From: Akkermansia muciniphila
GTDB lineage: Bacteria > Verrucomicrobiota > Verrucomicrobiia > Verrucomicrobiales > Akkermansiaceae
Length of the DNA: 32,459 nt
Assembly (NCBI GenBank): GCA_945860285.1
Contig: CAMAQB010000040.1
Location: 1-32,459, forward strand
Direction of reading: 5' to 3'
Within the stretch, counting starts at the first letter, position 1. Each line of letters begins with the position of its first letter. Positions 1 through 32,459 of the stretch are shown here, piece after piece. The translations under genes were made by a program, and so were the position numbers. The notes beneath the pieces were generated by a model. That model made no database searches. It was given only the letters and a program-made list of their open reading frames with translations, and was not told the DNA's origin.

Positions 1-290
1 GATGTTTTTGTAAATCGGCGTGATCCGGTCGACGTGAATCGACTCGCCTCCTTCATCGCGGATGATTTCAAACTCGGGGTGATCGACGACCAGTTTGCCT
101 TTTTGGTCCTTCACTTTTCCGTAAACAATCACCTCCTGACCGGCGGCGAGGGTTTTGGAAAGAAAGGGCATGTTGAACCAGCGACAGGTGATTTTGTTAG
201 AACCGAACACGCCGCCGAAGCCATCGAGAACCACCGCTTCATAGGTCGCGAATCCTTGGGAAAACCGCATTGCCCGCGCATCGATCACTG
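1..290 (-). pseudogene. recG: RecG helicase fragment (OB/wedge domain), 5'-truncated and running off the left edge
   Basis: The minus strand from about 290 to 1 reads as the wedge (OB-fold) domain of the branch-migrating DNA helicase RecG, which remodels stalled replication forks and Holliday junctions. Recognisable parts are the TVIDARAMRFSQG strand, CRWFNMPFL, the VIVYGKVKDQKGKLVV strand, HPEFEII, and the ITPIY entry to the helicase core. RecG is normally about 690 residues; only about 95 are in the window and the helicase motifs would lie beyond position 1. The 5' part of the gene is missing: homology stops near 290, where a 25-bp repeat begins, and a TAA inside the repeat closes the frame. 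An in-frame ATG at 270 exists but would give a protein without its N-terminal domain. Family assignment is fairly sure; calling it broken is inference from the abrupt end of homology. Confidence 0.72.
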
Positions 291-695: not shown

Positions 696-1052
696 GAGCT
701 GACATTCATTTTCGCTCCCATGATCGCTGTGAGCGGTGACTTGCATCACGGTCTATTGCGTACGGTTCGCTGGATTGTAGAGCAGTCGTGAGATGGGTAT
801 AGACGCGATCTCTGCTCGTCCTGAGAAAAAAACCGGCAGATGCTATCGCAAAGAACTGCATTTCGGATTCGAGGAAATACCGTGCATCCGCATGGAATAT
901 CTGGAAAATGATCTAACGGAAATCTAAGCCGACAAAGTGCGGGGATTCACGCCAAGGACGACCCCATTCTCCTGACATCAGGCCTCGTGCTCAGGCAGGA
1001 GAAAGGGGTGCGAAACCAACAGCGATCAGCTGATGGCCGACAGCCGGGACTA
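696..1052. other. Intergenic region without a gene
   Basis: About 350 bp lie between the oxidase remnant and the stop of the beta-strand repeat protein gene. I see no coding region with family resemblance. The only structure worth naming is the inverted repeat at 962-1008, annotated separately. Confidence 0.5.
962..1008 (-). terminator. Stem-loop downstream of the beta-strand repeat protein gene
   Basis: CCCCATTCTCCTG at 962-974 pairs with CAGGAGAAAGGGG at 996-1008 with one mismatch in 13. It lies 45 bp beyond the stop codon at 1053 on the minus strand. There is no T-tract, so it is a weak intrinsic terminator candidate or an mRNA-end stabilising hairpin. Confidence 0.4.
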
Positions 1053-27301: not shown

Positions 27302-27835
27302 CTAACTGATTGTTTCATTCACTGCGAGAATCGTTTTTCCTTCCAACCGGACCTGGTAGAGGACGGAAGGCAGGTATTTCGCGCCGAGGCAGGCCCAGAG
27401 TTGATTCCGCTGTTCCATGTTCAGTGGCTGACATTCGACCCTCATCATCTTGATCCGTGAATCAAGGGCCGGAAATTCAGCCTGTGTGAACACGGAACAT
27501 CGGTGAAAAAACTGCACAACCTCGTACAGGCACCTGAGCGCTGCGTCGGGCCGCGAGAAGTTGGCGGCGCAGAGCACCTGCAGATTGAGGTGCAACGCTG
27601 GTTCCGTGATGGCGGACCGGGTGGCGACGCCGTTGTCCACGGGCGGCTTGTTCCTCAGCGTTTGATCCTTCTCCAGATTGACGACGCAGAGACCCAACGA
27701 GTCTTTTGCGAATGCGTAATGGCCCGTGTCATCCAGCATTTGCGTCAACATGACTTTGAACTCGGCGTTACCCAAGCTGGCCCGCAAATGAGCGTGTAAC
27801 TGACCCGTCAGGAATTGTAGCGCGACATCCAACAT
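27302..27835 (-). CDS. Pvc16-like (DUF4255) protein, orphan
   Basis: The 177-residue protein from ATG 27835 resembles the DUF4255/Pvc16 N-terminal family: MLDVALQFLTGQLHAHL at the start, VVNLEKDQTLRN, LHLNLQVLCAANF, the helix CLYEVVQFFHRCSVFT, and the conserved end WACLGAKYLPSVLYQVRLEG. In contractile injection systems (Photorhabdus virulence cassettes, Afp, MACs) this protein caps or terminates the tube. Length fits the short form of the family. No sheath, tube, baseplate or AAA ATPase gene is in the window, so it is an orphan here; the upstream neighbour is the proline-rich secreted protein and the downstream one is the sulfur operon. The start is placed at the conserved MLDVALQFL; an extension to 27955 has no family resemblance. 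Confidence 0.75.
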   Translation of the reverse strand: MLDVALQFLTGQLHAHLRASLGNAEFKVMLTQMLDDTGHYAFAKDSLGLCVVNLEKDQTLRNKPPVDNGVATRSAITEPALHLNLQVLCAANFSRPDAALRCLYEVVQFFHRCSVFTQAEFPALDSRIKMMRVECQPLNMEQRNQLWACLGAKYLPSVLYQVRLEGKTILAVNETIS

Positions 27836-27975
27836 GACTTCATTGCTTTCTATGAGATTTCTGCGCCGATCAGTAATTCGCAGCCCTGCCACCCGGGGGA
27901 ATTTTTTCCGCTTCGGCCACGCTGAATTCGCGGTCGGAAAAACGTCAGAACACACCCGTAAGAATGATGTTCAGG

Positions 27976-28025
27976 AAAAAAAAACCGCGCGACCCGCAGA
28001 GCGGAGCCATGAGGGTTGTGCGGTT
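27976..28025 (-). terminator. Intrinsic terminator of the proline-rich protein gene
   Basis: On the minus strand AACCGC (28025-28020) pairs with GCGGTT (27988-27983), enclosing an inner CCGC-TCT-GCGG hairpin, and is followed by nine to ten T. It lies about 20 bp beyond the stop at 28047. Confidence 0.65.
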
Positions 28026-28046
28026 CAAAACAGTTTTCTCCAGACC

Positions 28047-28394
28047 TTACTTCGGTTTTTTCACCTCAGCAGGCGCAGGAACGGGAGGTGTTTTGGGTTT
28101 TGGCGGGGTGGGAGGAGTAGGCGGAGCGGGCAGAGCGGACGGGGTCTTGTCAGGTTTTGCCTCGATTGTGGCGGCGGTCATCGTATATTCGATCGTGACT
28201 TTCGAACCCACCTTCAACTCGCCGGTGACTTTGGTTGCGGCGGTGCGGGCGATTTCCCATTTCTCCTTCTCCTTCTGAACTACGATTTTTGTATCGGTGA
28301 GTTCAAGGATGGGACCGGTGACCTGATAGGCTCGGGCGGGTGCGGCGAATCCGATCAGGGCGAAGGAGGCGGCGAGTAGGACTGAATTTTTCAT
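28047..28394 (-). CDS. Small secreted protein with proline-rich tail
   Basis: The 115-residue protein has a clear signal peptide (about 1-22, ending APARA), then a short beta-rich domain (about 24-75) with QVTGPILELTDTKIVVQKEKEKWEI and KVGSKVTIEYTM, which looks like a small OB- or SH3-like barrel. The rest is a Pro/Lys/Thr tail. Similar secreted beta-barrel proteins of unknown role occur in Verrucomicrobiota. ATG 28394 is chosen because the signal peptide follows directly; upstream in-frame residues have no signal. The long leader (about 130 nt if the promoter at 28532-28559 is real) separates it from the hairpin array. No function assigned. Confidence 0.7.
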   Translation of the reverse strand: MKNSVLLAASFALIGFAAPARAYQVTGPILELTDTKIVVQKEKEKWEIARTAATKVTGELKVGSKVTIEYTMTAATIEAKPDKTPSALPAPPTPPTPPKPKTPPVPAPAEVKKPK

Positions 28395-28531
28395 GTTGAT
28401 ACTGTTGTTGATTGATTGCTGGGATTTTGTGTTGGTTTGCTTGGGATCGAAAACGGGGAAAATATGGCGCGCTCCTCGACAGCTTTTGAAACAGGTCGGA
28501 CGAAGATCCGCACGCGCATGCATGGAACGAA

Positions 28532-28559
28532 AGAGTATTTTTATCCTCCCCAGTGTCAA
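28532..28559 (-). promoter_or_regulatory. Candidate promoter for the proline-rich protein
   Basis: On the minus strand TTGACA (28559-28554) is perfect and TACTCT (28537-28532) follows after 16 bp; the -10 is weak. It lies between the hairpin array and the gene starting at 28394. Confidence 0.35.
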
Positions 28560-28745
28560 GAATTTTACCGACCGCCTTAGTATGGCGATCAAGCCAGGGA
28601 GATTCTTAAAGGCAGGGAAGGCTCTCCGAGCGTTCCGGTGGGGGACGGCCACATTTCACCCTAACGTAACCTACCTTCACCCCACGCTATCGTTCGCCAA
28701 CAACGCCGGTGAGTCAGGAAGATCCTTCATGAGCAAACAACCCTG

Positions 28746-28828
28746 CCCCCGCCGGAACTTTCGGAGAAACTTCCCTGCCTGAAAGGCATCAAAAGGCAGG
28801 GAACGATCTCCGAGCGTTCCGGTGGGGG
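28746..28828. repeat. Long hairpin of the array, copy 1
   Basis: CCCCCGCCGGAAC (28746-28758) pairs with GTTCCGGTGGGGG (28816-28828), with a G-T pair that keeps the stem. TCGGAGA/TCTCCGA and TTCCCTGCCT/AGGCAGGGAA continue it inward. The apical loop is longer than in the other copies. Confidence 0.85.
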
Positions 28829-28929
28829 ACGGTCGCGGATCACCCTAACGTAATCTACCTTCACCCCACGCCCTCGTTCGCAAACAAAGCGAGTGAGTCA
28901 GGAAGATCCTTCATGAGCAAACACCCCTG

Positions 28930-29010
28930 CCCCCACCGGAACTTTCGGAGAAACTTCCCTGCCTTTGGAATCAAAAGGCAGGGAACGATCTCCGAGCGTT
29001 CCGGTGGGGG
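28930..29010. repeat. Long hairpin of the array, copy 2
   Basis: CCCCCACCGGAAC (28930-28942) pairs perfectly with GTTCCGGTGGGGG (28998-29010); TCGGAGA/TCTCCGA and an 11-bp apical stem TTCCCTGCCTT/AAGGCAGGGAA follow, with loop TGGAATCA. Confidence 0.88.
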
Positions 29011-29111
29011 ACGGTCGCATCACGCCGTAACGCATCCAACCTTCACCCCACGCCCTCGTTCGCAAACAAAGCGAGTGAGTCAGGAAGATCCTTCATGAGC
29101 AAACAACCCTG

Positions 29112-29192
29112 CCCCCACCGGAACGCTCGGAAAAACTTCCCTGCCTTTGGAATCAAAAGGCAGGGAACGATCTCCGAGCGTTCCGGTGGGGG
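29112..29192. repeat. Long hairpin of the array, copy 3 (perfect 20-bp outer stem)
   Basis: CCCCCACCGGAACGCTCGGA (29112-29131) is the exact reverse complement of 29173-29192. After a small internal loop the 11-bp stem TTCCCTGCCTT/AAGGCAGGGAA closes over TGGAATCA. Substitutions against copies 1 and 2 improve pairing. Confidence 0.9.
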
Positions 29193-29239
29193 ACGGACGC
29201 ATCACGCCGTACAAGTGACAAACGGGCCGGCTTGGTCGG

Positions 29240-30355
29240 CTACTTCGACGCCTGCGGTGGTCGGGCACTGATTTCCAGCTCGATGGAATAGGATCCGTCG
29301 TCACTTTTTTCCAGCACCTTCATGACCGCGGGCGCGTCCTTGTTCTCAAAGCGGTCTCCCGGTTGAAAAGGAGCGTTCAACAAGTCGCCTTTCGGATAGA
29401 CGACCACCGAATTCTGTCCGGACGGCAGCGTGGCATCGACGCTGTAAACAAGAACGCCGCTGGCATTTTCAGCTTTGTCTTGATCGCGGAAAGGCTGTGC
29501 AATTTCGAAAACAAAAACCTTGCTGGGCTTGGTCGGATCATCGGCGGGTACGGCGATCATCGAGAGACCGGACGATCCATTCAATGGTGTCAGCTTGAAT
29601 TGATGTTTCCCCGAGACCACATAGGTCTTCCGGTCGGCTTCGAGCCAGGTCAGCTTGTGGCGATGCCAGCCGAGGAAGCCCGCGGCTTTTCCGGCGGCTG
29701 ACATGAGGTCCCATTCCCCTGTCGGATTCTTCGTACCTTTGGCATCGGCGTAAGAATACAGGTCGGGCAGTCCCAGCAGATGTCCCGTCTCGTGGGCGAG
29801 CACATACGGGGTCGACGTGGTGATGTTCAGCGCGAGATTGATCTTCTTGCCTTTGTAGGGGATGGCGATCTCATCGCGCTCGCCGAATGCGGTATTGCCG
29901 ATATGCGGCAGATTGACCATGATGAGGTCGTAGGCAAGGAAATCGACTTCCGGATAGAGGCGGAAGATTTCGACGAACAACTCGCGATGCTCCTCCGTTG
30001 TTTTGCTGCTGTATTCCTTGTGGGACTTGGGCAGGCGACGCCATCCATCGATGTGTTTGATGTCAAAACTCAGTTTTCCATACGATTGCACGCGGAAAAG
30101 GTCCTGGAATTTGCCTTCGCCCAGAACTGTTTTGCCCCGCTCCACGGTCGCGACGTCCATCGGAGCATCCGGGAAGTCGACATAGAGCATGATGGTTTTC
30201 TTGAGGCCGACGCTGCTGTCATAGATCAACGGATCATTGGGTCCTTCGGTTTTGTAGACATCGCCCTTGGGGTCCAATGCGGGGATTTCCAAAGCGGCGG
30301 CACCAAGAATGGCGCTGGCTGCGAGAATTATGCCTAAGTTGAATGTTGTAGTCAT
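29240..30355 (-). CDS. Secreted M6-family metalloprotease-like protein
   Basis: The 371-residue protein has a signal peptide (about 1-21, ending GAAA) and an M6 (immune inhibitor A-like) peptidase domain. The zinc site HETGHLLGLPDLY lies at about 184-196, and the downstream GEWDLMSAAGKAAGFLGWHRHKLTWL segment is the usual Met-turn-like region of the family. Upstream, FPDAPMDVA and YGKLSFDIKHIDGWRRLP also fit. M6 members cleave extracellular proteins. The C-terminal third is beta-rich with no anchor seen, so release from the cell is likely. ATG 30355 is chosen because the signal peptide follows at once and AAGGA lies about 12 nt upstream, one of the few Shine-Dalgarno-like sequences in the window. 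The ExbD-like gene ends 80 bp upstream on the same strand; the hairpin array follows downstream. Confidence 0.85.
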   Translation of the reverse strand: MTTTFNLGIILAASAILGAAALEIPALDPKGDVYKTEGPNDPLIYDSSVGLKKTIMLYVDFPDAPMDVATVERGKTVLGEGKFQDLFRVQSYGKLSFDIKHIDGWRRLPKSHKEYSSKTTEEHRELFVEIFRLYPEVDFLAYDLIMVNLPHIGNTAFGERDEIAIPYKGKKINLALNITTSTPYVLAHETGHLLGLPDLYSYADAKGTKNPTGEWDLMSAAGKAAGFLGWHRHKLTWLEADRKTYVVSGKHQFKLTPLNGSSGLSMIAVPADDPTKPSKVFVFEIAQPFRDQDKAENASGVLVYSVDATLPSGQNSVVVYPKGDLLNAPFQPGDRFENKDAPAVMKVLEKSDDGSYSIELEISARPPQASK

Positions 30356-30435
30356 TTGTGTGGTTGTCCTTACTTGTTGAGTTTGATTGTGCGGAATTTG
30401 TCTTTGTGGATGGTGTGCATTTAAAAGTGCGGGGC

Positions 30436-31542
30436 TCAATCGAGCCGCTGTTTCGGAGGTGGCGGCGCGGGTGGCGCCGCCGGGCCCGGCGGACCGGGCG
30501 GAGGAGGTTCGGCCAGCCGGTTGACTTCGAATTCGAGCGGTCCGTTGAACACGGTGTTGCCGTCCACTTCCCAACCACAGGGGATGCGCATGATGTCGGC
30601 AATCTCACGTGCCTTGAGATAGGTTTCAAAGCCATCGGGGTTCACCTTGAAAATCAGGGCGATGCCGTTGTAGGAACTCAGCTTGTAGGCGATTTCATGA
30701 AAGCGGCCTTTCGGCTGGTTCATGTCGTCCAGCGTCGCGTCGCCTTTCCCCGCTCCGAAATCGATCTGATAATTGAGGGTGGTGCCGAATTTGTTTTCCG
30801 GCACTCTGATCGACTGACCGCGCACGGTGAGGTTGAGCTTGGCAAAATGGTTCACGATCTTGCTCTGGTCGTAAATGATGCGGTCGAGCGCGCGCGGCAC
30901 TTTGACCCTTTGATGAATGAAGTTGCGCTTCTCCTTATCGAACGCGTCCATCACCATGTCGTGAGCGGTGATGGGATCGACAAGGCAGGCCTGTTTGCCG
31001 CGAATGTAGCAGTAGTAAAGTTTTGCGTTCTTCGGAATATCGCGGCTGTTGGGGATGCGCACGACTTTGGGCGGCGCGGGTTTTTCGGAGGGCATTTTGT
31101 CGAGCAGCGCCTTGAGGCTGTCGCGCTCGGTGATCATCGCGGAAAGCGCGGACTGTTGTTTGGCGAGTTCCTCCGCGCGGGCGGTCGATTCTTTTTGCAG
31201 CGTGGGGATGTCGAAAAGTTTGATGTTCTTTTCCTTCCACTCCTCTTCGAGCAGTTTGAGTTCGGCGGCAACGCCGGGGTCGGCGCGATAGTTGGCAAGG
31301 CTGGCGATTTCGGTTTCCGCGGATTTTTTTCCGGCATTGGTCTGTTCGAGCGAAGTCTGAACCTGTGAGACCTGGGCGGCGGTGGCGGGAACCAGATCGG
31401 TCAACACCTTGCGGACCGCGTGGGCGATGCTGATGCCCATCATCACCAGCACGATGGTGAGCACGCCGACGACATTGGTCATCGTGTCCATCAGGGCCAC
31501 GAAGGGCAGCTCATCGCCGTGATCATTTCTGCGCTTGGCCAT
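30436..31542 (-). CDS. ExbD/MotB-like membrane protein with coiled coil
   Basis: The 368-residue protein has a short basic N-terminus, one membrane segment (about 14-42) containing LPFVALMDTMTNVVGVLTIVL, a coiled coil (about 55-145), a beta-rich C-terminal domain and a proline-rich end. The Asp at about 18, at the mouth of the membrane helix, corresponds to the proton-path Asp of ExbD, TolR and MotB. Such proteins pair with an ExbB/TolQ/MotA-like channel to turn the proton gradient into motion in the periplasm. The partner would normally lie directly upstream, but there the window holds an ISL3 remnant from about 31572. Either the partner was lost or the operon was split. The specific role (outer-membrane transport, gliding or another work cycle) is not visible. 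Confidence 0.68.
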   Translation of the reverse strand: MAKRRNDHGDELPFVALMDTMTNVVGVLTIVLVMMGISIAHAVRKVLTDLVPATAAQVSQVQTSLEQTNAGKKSAETEIASLANYRADPGVAAELKLLEEEWKEKNIKLFDIPTLQKESTARAEELAKQQSALSAMITERDSLKALLDKMPSEKPAPPKVVRIPNSRDIPKNAKLYYCYIRGKQACLVDPITAHDMVMDAFDKEKRNFIHQRVKVPRALDRIIYDQSKIVNHFAKLNLTVRGQSIRVPENKFGTTLNYQIDFGAGKGDATLDDMNQPKGRFHEIAYKLSSYNGIALIFKVNPDGFETYLKAREIADIMRIPCGWEVDGNTVFNGPLEFEVNRLAEPPPPGPPGPAAPPAPPPPKQRLD

Positions 31543-31571: not shown

Positions 31572-32237
31572 GCCTCTTCCGCAAAATCTGTGGGTAAAAA
31601 GCACCATTGTGGGAAAATAAACATTTGTGATGACGAGCGTAATTGGTAAGTCAAGTGGTCAAAAAAAACAACCATTCCGTTCGCCATCACAGTTAAAAAC
31701 CTACTCAGTAAATCGCGCCCGATCAAGGGCTTTCTTTTTCGCACCGTCGAAATGACTGAGAGCCCCAAGAAGCTGATCAAAGTCACCATCGAGCCACGCA
31801 AAAACAACCGTGCCAAATGCTCTTGCTGCGGCAAATCCGGTCCCACCTACGACACCTCCCCCTCAGTTCGCTCATTCGACTACATTCCCCTCTGGAACAT
31901 CCCCGTGCGCTTCTACTACCGTATGCGCCGCGTCGATTGTCGTCACTGCGGCCGTATCATCACCGAAGCCATTCCCTGGGCGAGCGGCAAGCACCGCCTC
32001 ACTAACGACTTCCGCATCTTCCTTGCCCAATGGTCGCGCCTGCTAAGCTGGAAAGACTGCGCTAGGATGTTTCACGCCAAATGGGACAGCGTATTTCGCA
32101 GTGTGCAATGGATCGTCCAATACGGTCTCGCCCACCGCGTTCTCGAAGAGATCACCGCCATCGGCATCGATGAAGTCGCCTACACCAAAGGCCACCATTA
32201 CATGACCCTCATTTACCAGATCAATGATGGAGCACGC
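31572..32237 (+). mobile_element. ISL3-family insertion sequence remnant
   Basis: It comprises a candidate left terminal repeat starting near 31572 (GCCTCTTCCGCAAAATC then TGTGGG, in the style of ISL3 ends) and the first 162 codons of the transposase. The right part is missing; the element stops at the 25-bp repeat at 32238. Target duplications cannot be checked because no right end remains. Confidence 0.55.
31752..32237 (+). pseudogene. ISL3 transposase, 3'-truncated
   Basis: Residues 1-162 match ISL3 transposases. The zinc ribbon is present (CSCCGKSG at 23-30 and CRHCG near 62-66), then the helix-turn-helix region HRLTNDFRIFLAQW ... FHAKWDSVFRSVQW, then the first catalytic Asp (Asp140) in GIDEVAYTKGHHYMTLIY. 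Full-length members are about 400 residues, so the second Asp, the Glu and the C-terminal half are absent. Homology ends after INDGAR at 32237, exactly where the 25-bp repeat begins; the frame then reads on into non-family sequence for about 28 codons. The protein would be inactive. The coding start ATG 31752 fits the usual N-terminus. Confidence 0.85.
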
Positions 32238-32262
32238 TATGAGATGGGGACAGACAAATTAT
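32238..32262 (+). repeat. 25-bp dispersed repeat, right copy, upstream of a RAYT gene
   Basis: This matches 289-313 at 23 of 25 positions (core TGAGATGGGGACAGAC and AAATTAT). It begins where ISL3 homology ends and lies 45 bp before the GTG start of the RAYT. The GGGACAGAC core is a sequence I associate with the surroundings of RAYT genes, from memory and unverified. Confidence 0.8.
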
Positions 32263-32307
32263 CAAAATTCTTCTTGCTATCAGAGAAGATTGGGATAGGG
32301 TGGGGGC

Positions 32308-32459
32308 GTGCGTCGTTCTAGATGGTTGGTCCCTTGGAAAAAATCGTTGGTGAAACCGGCGATTTACCACTGCATTTCGCGGGTGGTGGATCGGCGGTTT
32401 GTGTTTGGGGATGCGGAGCGGGAGCAGTTCCGGATTTTTTTGCGGATGTATGAAAATTT
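32308..32459 (+). CDS. REP-associated tyrosine transposase (RAYT), N-terminus, cut by the right edge
   Basis: Fifty codons are present from GTG 32308; the rest lies beyond the window. The sequence has the RAYT N-terminus: a basic start, then PAIYHCISRVVDRRFVF and DAEREQFRIFLRMYE, which corresponds to the Y1_Tnp (IS200-like) fold. RAYTs are single-stranded DNA transposases related to IS200/IS605 TnpA that move or maintain REP palindromes and are usually domesticated, without flanking insertion-sequence ends. A TAG at 32296 closes the frame upstream and GTG 32308 is the only start before the conserved part, with a G-rich stretch in front. The HUH histidines and catalytic Tyr are outside the window. 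Confidence 0.82.
   Translation, partial: MRRSRWLVPWKKSLVKPAIYHCISRVVDRRFVFGDAEREQFRIFLRMYEN

Follow-up and report, generated by a model that had tools for sequence, protein, structure and literature searches.

What kind of element is the tandem array that lies between two minus-strand genes of Akkermansia muciniphila, a functional RNA or mobile DNA? We analyzed a stretch of 32,459 nucleotides from this species (the window), in which a sequence-only reading had noticed units of 182-184 bp with long palindromes at 28608-29212 and had offered four guesses, a tandem non-coding RNA, a RAYT substrate family, a protein-binding array or a chain of mRNA-end structures. TRF reported a single tandem array in the window, at 28608-29211, with a period of 182, 3.3 copies and 91% matches, and the units are spaced by 184, 182 and 182, confirming that the array is real. 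It is flanked by a 115-aa frame that starts at 28394 (-) and has no Pfam match, and by a gene with a Peptidase_M6 match at 29240-30574 (-), whose stop codon lies at 29240. The proposed bounds needed correction at both sides, as the element already starts at 28581 with the remnant of a transposon end, which had been missed, and the fourth unit ends after its first hairpin, at 29211, 28 nt past the stop codon of the M6-like gene.

Each array unit consists of a tagged hairpin A (+) followed 141 nt on by a tagged hairpin B (-), leaving a gap of 113 nt (Table 1). The hairpin consensus is GGCAG-[GGA NNNN TC TCC GA NNNN TCC]-GG, in which GGCAG is the tag and TCTCCGA the loop. The degenerate hairpin, at up to 3 mismatches, matched the window seven times, compared to 0.01 expected, and all seven matches fall inside the array. 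The end at 28581 is probably an inverted R end, because the linker that follows it is closest by eye to the R-end linker.

Table 1. Parts of the array and of the element that contains it, in window positions.
Feature	Position	Strand	Remark
Decayed ISAs1-type TIR (TATGGCGATCAAGCCAGGGA, 2 mismatches)	28581..28600	+	Outer left edge of element; 0.02 matches expected in window at <=3 mismatches
Linker GATTCTTAAA	28601..28610	+	Nearest by eye to the linker at the R end of complete MITEs (GATGCTCAAA)
REP hairpin A1, variant GGCAGGGAAGGCTCTCCGAGCGTTCCGG	28611..28638	+	
REP hairpin B1, inverted	28752..28779	-	A1-B1 is REPIN unit 1
REP hairpin A2 (GGCAGGGAACGATCTCCGAGCGTTCCGG)	28795..28822	+	
Small internal stem-loop (CTCGTTCGC/GCGAGTGAG)	28873..28897	+	Unit 2 spacer; stem 28873-28881/28889-28897
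REP hairpin B2, inverted	28936..28963	-	A2-B2 is REPIN unit 2
REP hairpin A3	28977..29004	+	
REP hairpin B3, inverted	29118..29145	-	One half A-type (GAGCGTTCC)
REP hairpin A4	29159..29186	+	Truncated fourth unit
Spacer stub of fourth unit	29187..29211	+	Homology to other units stops at 29211; right TIR absent

The sequence-only reading had regarded the ~81-nt palindromes as structures kept by compensation. We found junction palindromes in three copies, with arms that are 85% (28930-28969/28971-29010), 88% (29112-29151/29153-29192) and 83% (28746-28780/28794-28828) complementary, and we also recovered the perfect 20-bp stem (29112-29131/29173-29192), a G-T pair at the copy-1/copy-2 junction as read from the sequence, and the second, smaller stem in unit 2. 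Comparison with the 31 A-B doublets of the same genome gave no support for maintenance of the long palindrome, as the variable stem positions pair in 184 of 248 cases within the local hairpins versus 97 of 248 between the A and B arms, and the maintained structure is therefore the local hairpin of ~21 nt. The perfect stem with A4 had been taken as a sign of selection; it is due to B3 being an A/B recombinant that carries an A-type half.

We extended the comparison to other genomes with a pattern in which four positions of each stem arm could vary freely, and this pattern matched at least 77 stretches in named genomes. The titles among the matches listed were Verrucomicrobiota or Lentisphaerae, with one labelled Neomarinimicrobiota. 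Among 24 distinct cores, 74 of the 96 free pairs were Watson-Crick, whereas 20,000 permutations gave 48.8 on average and never more than 65. The covariation that the sequence-only reading suggested looking for is thus present, in the stem of the local hairpin and not in the 81-nt palindrome. The hairpin pattern is uncommon: of a phylum-wide sample of 288 genomes, 5 contained it. In a set of 57 genomes, seven had the hairpin when up to 1 mismatch was allowed, and the reversed control gave a single match, in G009.

The hairpins are widely dispersed in their own genome (G000; 3.7 Mb, 162 contigs). A search with the unit gave at least 140 BLAST matches, arm-to-arm matches included and 40 of 91 candidates scored, and the 28-mer matched 74 places at up to 3 mismatches, compared to none for the reversed pattern. 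In the stretches examined we mapped 120 hairpins, on 46 contigs and in 62 clusters, including 31 A-B doublets that measure 140-142 nt from low end to low end. Fifty-three of the 120 match the A or B consensus exactly, and five have 6 to 8 mismatches. The tag reads GCAG in 86 hairpins and GTAG in one (C10:54853), and is changed in the others; the hairpin tag therefore fits GYAG and not strict GTAG. The window units resemble one another (0.88-0.92) no more than they resemble their best matches elsewhere (0.92-0.95), so the array is no fresh local duplication. At C1:16075 and C129, by contrast, units of one array resemble each other (0.97) more closely than they resemble units from outside, a pattern expected of local duplication, and this counts against our preferred explanation below.

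We evaluated the possibility of a tandem structured non-coding RNA with a function of its own, for which a fixed gene context of such arrays had been proposed as the sign. Unit 2 folds strongly as RNA, which speaks for this reading, with z about -7.6 on both strands (-7.64 and -7.61; none of 200 shuffles was equally stable). Genes were called with a simple home-made caller, and all but one of the 62 clusters (61) are free of overlap with a called gene; 24 clusters sit at the edge of a contig or locus. The 37 clusters with both neighbours called comprise 21 tandem, 10 divergent and 6 convergent intergenic regions, where the background has 59, 22 and 14, and this resemblance to the background indicates that the clusters have no fixed gene context. 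A scan of 28000-30000 gave no Rfam family at the gathering score, all matches being below it, in agreement with the earlier exclusion of a CRISPR, an attC array and a terminator series. With the anatomy of a mobile element throughout, a non-coding RNA of this kind is scarcely credible. The array is very probably parasitic DNA of the genome, known in kind and unusual in its double form, and not a conserved regulatory RNA.

The search for a transposase that could act on these hairpins led to a RAYT-like gene at C160:381-857, which lies between a hairpin B at 233-260 (-) and a hairpin A at 870-897 (+). The gene was found only by an HMM built in this analysis and was missed by our gene caller. It matches the NCBIfam model REP_Tyr_transpos with E = 1e-20 and 74.1 bits, under the curated cut-off of 80, a shortfall that weakens the assignment, and it has no Pfam match. 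Its alignment to TnpA_REP (PDB 4ER8; E = 1.3e-7) places both HUH histidines and the tyrosine, with its HLH opposite the HMH of 4ER8 and its tyrosine opposite position 115 of the 4ER8 chain. PMC8266576 terms Y115F of TnpA_REP the catalytic mutant, and describes recognition of both hairpin and tag by the enzyme. One group-3 enzyme in the same study barely cleaved GCAG, which speaks against RAYT action on the tag found here.

Close RAYT homologues, for which we chose a cut of E below 1e-60, occurred in two of 56 other genomes, G015 (59%) and G021 (64%). The G015 gene has on both sides, at ~75 nt, a hairpin that differs by a single change in the tail. The G021 gene is flanked by a variant hairpin with another loop, an observation that does not favour the proposed pairing of enzyme and hairpin. 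Counting its own genome, a close RAYT is present in three of 57 genomes, and all three are among the seven that have the hairpin; the remaining four (G006, G009, G016 and G028) hold the hairpin with only distant RAYT homologues, which is a further point against. The HMM set matched four of the 77 named hairpin loci listed, L178, L184, L230 and L194. L184 has hairpins on both sides of its RAYT. At L178, which is cut by the locus end, and at L230, just one side of the RAYT shows hairpins within 1 kb; the nearness in these three is partly a matter of selection, since the loci were chosen for holding the hairpin. Six matched RAYTs, that of C160 and five from other genomes, form one clade (60 rows; SH-aLRT 97) in a tree made by a quick method with several rows under half filled. 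L194 falls outside this clade and was rejected as a member. The HMM set also matched L129 in the own genome, which looks like a decayed RAYT of another group and was left out of the tree.

We considered the Y1_Tnp genes of the own genome as alternative partners and rejected them, as none of the 16 matches had this hairpin in the flanks examined. These 16 matches (L031-L046) make up a large set of RAYT-type genes, of which the C160 gene is a more divergent relative, and at least eight of them lie beside other palindromes or long inverted repeats. At 30 of the 41 Y1_Tnp loci listed in relatives, the hairpin was seen only at L152, ~860 bp off.

The features of the array agree with those of REPINs or BIMEs as given in PMC3116915, namely a pair of tagged hairpins in inverted orientation around a spacer, an extragenic and dispersed distribution, a RAYT in the genome, and ordered tandem clusters. 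The largest REPIN cluster in Bertels and Rainey 2011 has four REPINs and one extra REP over >700 bp, and some ordered tandem clusters adjoin RAYT genes (PMC3116915). The present doublets differ from those described there in having their outer first residues ~168 nt apart, compared to 71 in the GI doublets, in their GCAG tag, and in often lying inside the TIRs of a DDE transposon. They also resemble the GTAG REP superfamily (Di Nocera 2013), which according to PMC3733652 allows a GYAG tag and has inverted dimers with conserved spacers; the comparison is with the description of the superfamily, which comprises 24 families. The same paper reports that O. terrae, a member of the Verrucomicrobiota, is rich in GTAG-tagged REPs, and that some RAYT genes bear long TIRs (PMC3733652).

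We conclude that the array is very probably a tandem REPIN cluster (BIME), which bears out one of the four original guesses, that of a RAYT substrate family, through the dispersed copies, the GYAG-type tag, the inverted dimers and the RAYT-like gene that has these hairpins on either side. The RAYT would bind each GGCAG-hairpin in single-stranded DNA, and cut and rejoin the DNA there; this action would spread the doublets and help to amplify them head to tail.

The remnant at 28581 belongs to a second kind of mobile DNA. The sequence CACGGCGATCAAGCYAGGGA lies upstream of many A hairpins and is inverted at the far end, and this TIR matches 84 places in the own genome at up to 2 mismatches. One or both ISAs1-type ends accompany 29 of the 62 clusters (16 with both, 8 with only L, 5 with only R). 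The other 33 have no recognisable TIR, a point against capture between ISAs1 ends as the general state. An IS of 1276 bp at C106:4639-5914 has the same 20-bp TIRs and an ISAs1 transposase (360.7 bits; cut-off 70). ISAs1-type TSDs measure 8-10 bp. The IS is without a TSD of its own (4/10), a point against the explanation preferred here, and a further TIR pair on C7 (1210 bp) has no transposase-like frame by eye and no clear TSD. We examined the 31 TIR pairs in the stretches covered and found a 10-bp TSD of at least 8/10 around 22, with 13 of these at 10/10 and nine pairs without, so that the family has both marks of ISAs1-type MITEs, TIRs in common with an ISAs1 IS and TSDs.

Nineteen of the 22 TSD-flanked elements hold recognisable hairpins, and 12 of these 19 measure 244-251 bp and consist of A, spacer and an inverted C hairpin. 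Two are longer by whole units, C35:12278-12707 (430 bp) being the ~250-bp element with one extra 182-bp unit and C1:16025-16637 (613 bp) with two, both with perfect TIRs and a 10/10 TSD. With their TIRs and target duplications, the elements of 250, 430 and 613 bp seem to capture successive stages in the addition of units. Five further hairpin elements, of 370-460 bp, have other inserts or arrangements. The window copy has a single, decayed TIR and has lost its right end, so it offers no TSD to test and lacks the two TIRs and TSD of the family, which weakens its own assignment.

The ends raise the possibility of a pure ISAs1 MITE family, in which the hairpins are the mere interior of a DDE-transposon derivative, the RAYT is irrelevant, and arrays arise via slippage or recombination inside the MITE. 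Such a family is very unlikely. It would account for the TIRs with 10-bp TSDs and the ISAs1 IS in the same genome, for the two expanded arrays within intact TIRs and for the two arrays of closely similar units. It would not account for the 33 own clusters without TIRs or for the RAYT clade adjoined by such hairpins in six genomes. The sister species G009 has the same doublet with compensated stems and no match to the TIR at up to 2 mismatches, and one element each in G003 and G007, of ~155 bp, shares the TIR and has no hairpins by eye; from these two observations, two independent parts seem to have met in this lineage. The elements share with ISAs1-family MITEs their short length, the TIRs of an IS in the same genome and the 10-bp TSD; unlike those MITEs, they enclose a REP doublet that is also found alone elsewhere, and two are expanded by 182-bp units.

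Returning to the REPIN cluster as the preferred reading, we suggest that a doublet was captured between ISAs1 ends in this lineage to give the ~250-bp MITE, which the ISAs1 transposase would move, also after internal expansion by 182-bp units. The window copy would be one of these expanded elements, which lost its right end through a deletion 28 nt past the stop codon of the M6-like gene. That the elements transposed at all we infer from their sequences. We put forward more tentatively, at somewhat less than even confidence, that the family is a chimera, in which a RAYT-dependent REPIN sits inside an ISAs1 MITE and could spread by either of two routes unrelated in their chemistry, a single-strand HUH/tyrosine route and a double-strand DDE route. 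In this view the first may expand the element internally and the second may bring the array, once expanded, to other sites, and there would be a strong orientation of insertion or survival behind the 3' ends of genes. A REPIN cluster would be of a known kind and a REPIN within an ISAs1 MITE would be a new arrangement; a small open-access literature search, which is no proof of absence, found no REPs inside ISAs1 MITEs. The elements show one way for a REP doublet to become part of a classical MITE. To our knowledge RAYT-driven transposition has not been seen directly, and a merger of REPIN and MITE therefore bears on how REPINs spread.

Some MITE copies have additional features. At C10:54802-55313 (L071) two MITEs lie side by side, separated by 10 bp, and the 10-mer GACAGGTTGG flanks them on the outside; the pair therefore seems to have moved as one composite. 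The copies at C99:4973-5430 and C120:368-827 have an apparent further insert with the palindromic ends of another family. Elements of 292, 356 and 302 bp at C21:11759, C70:664 and C140:4530 have the same TIRs, TSDs of 9/10 to 10/10 and no hairpins that we could find, and they may represent another line of MITEs that goes back to this IS.

The elements are oriented with respect to genes, in that, of the 31 elements that follow the 3' end of a called gene by no more than 150 nt, 29 have the A hairpin first in the sense of the gene (p = 4.6e-7, on the assumption of independent clusters). The bias was similar without TIRs (17 of 18) and with them (12 of 13), persisted at stricter gene scores and was weaker at 250 nt (30 of 38). 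It was absent near gene starts (7 of 13), and GC skew of the stretches examined failed to separate the two orientations (p = 0.92). Together with the strong folding, the bias fits the proposal that sense-oriented doublets behind stop codons are selected as stabilisers or attenuators of transcripts. The window array is itself one of the two exceptions, the intergenic classes match the background, and both strands fold strongly, so that stability alone would not give an orientation bias. Selection as a 3'-end mRNA structure thus appears unlikely as the explanation of the family, and for the REPIN cluster any effects on neighbouring mRNA would be secondary. The bias of 29 in 31 at gene 3' ends is directly testable.

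We attempted to follow the locus by synteny of the M6-like gene, which was absent from nine same-genus genomes searched. The M6-peptidase-like gene is patchy, occurring in three of 38 genomes, its own included. Elsewhere in the window, 27302-27955 (-) encodes a protein with a Pvc16_N domain, a type known from contractile injection systems, and 31752-32321 (+), near the contig end, matches an ISL3-type zinc ribbon weakly, at 22.3 bits where the cut-off is 25.5, and is perhaps a transposase fragment.
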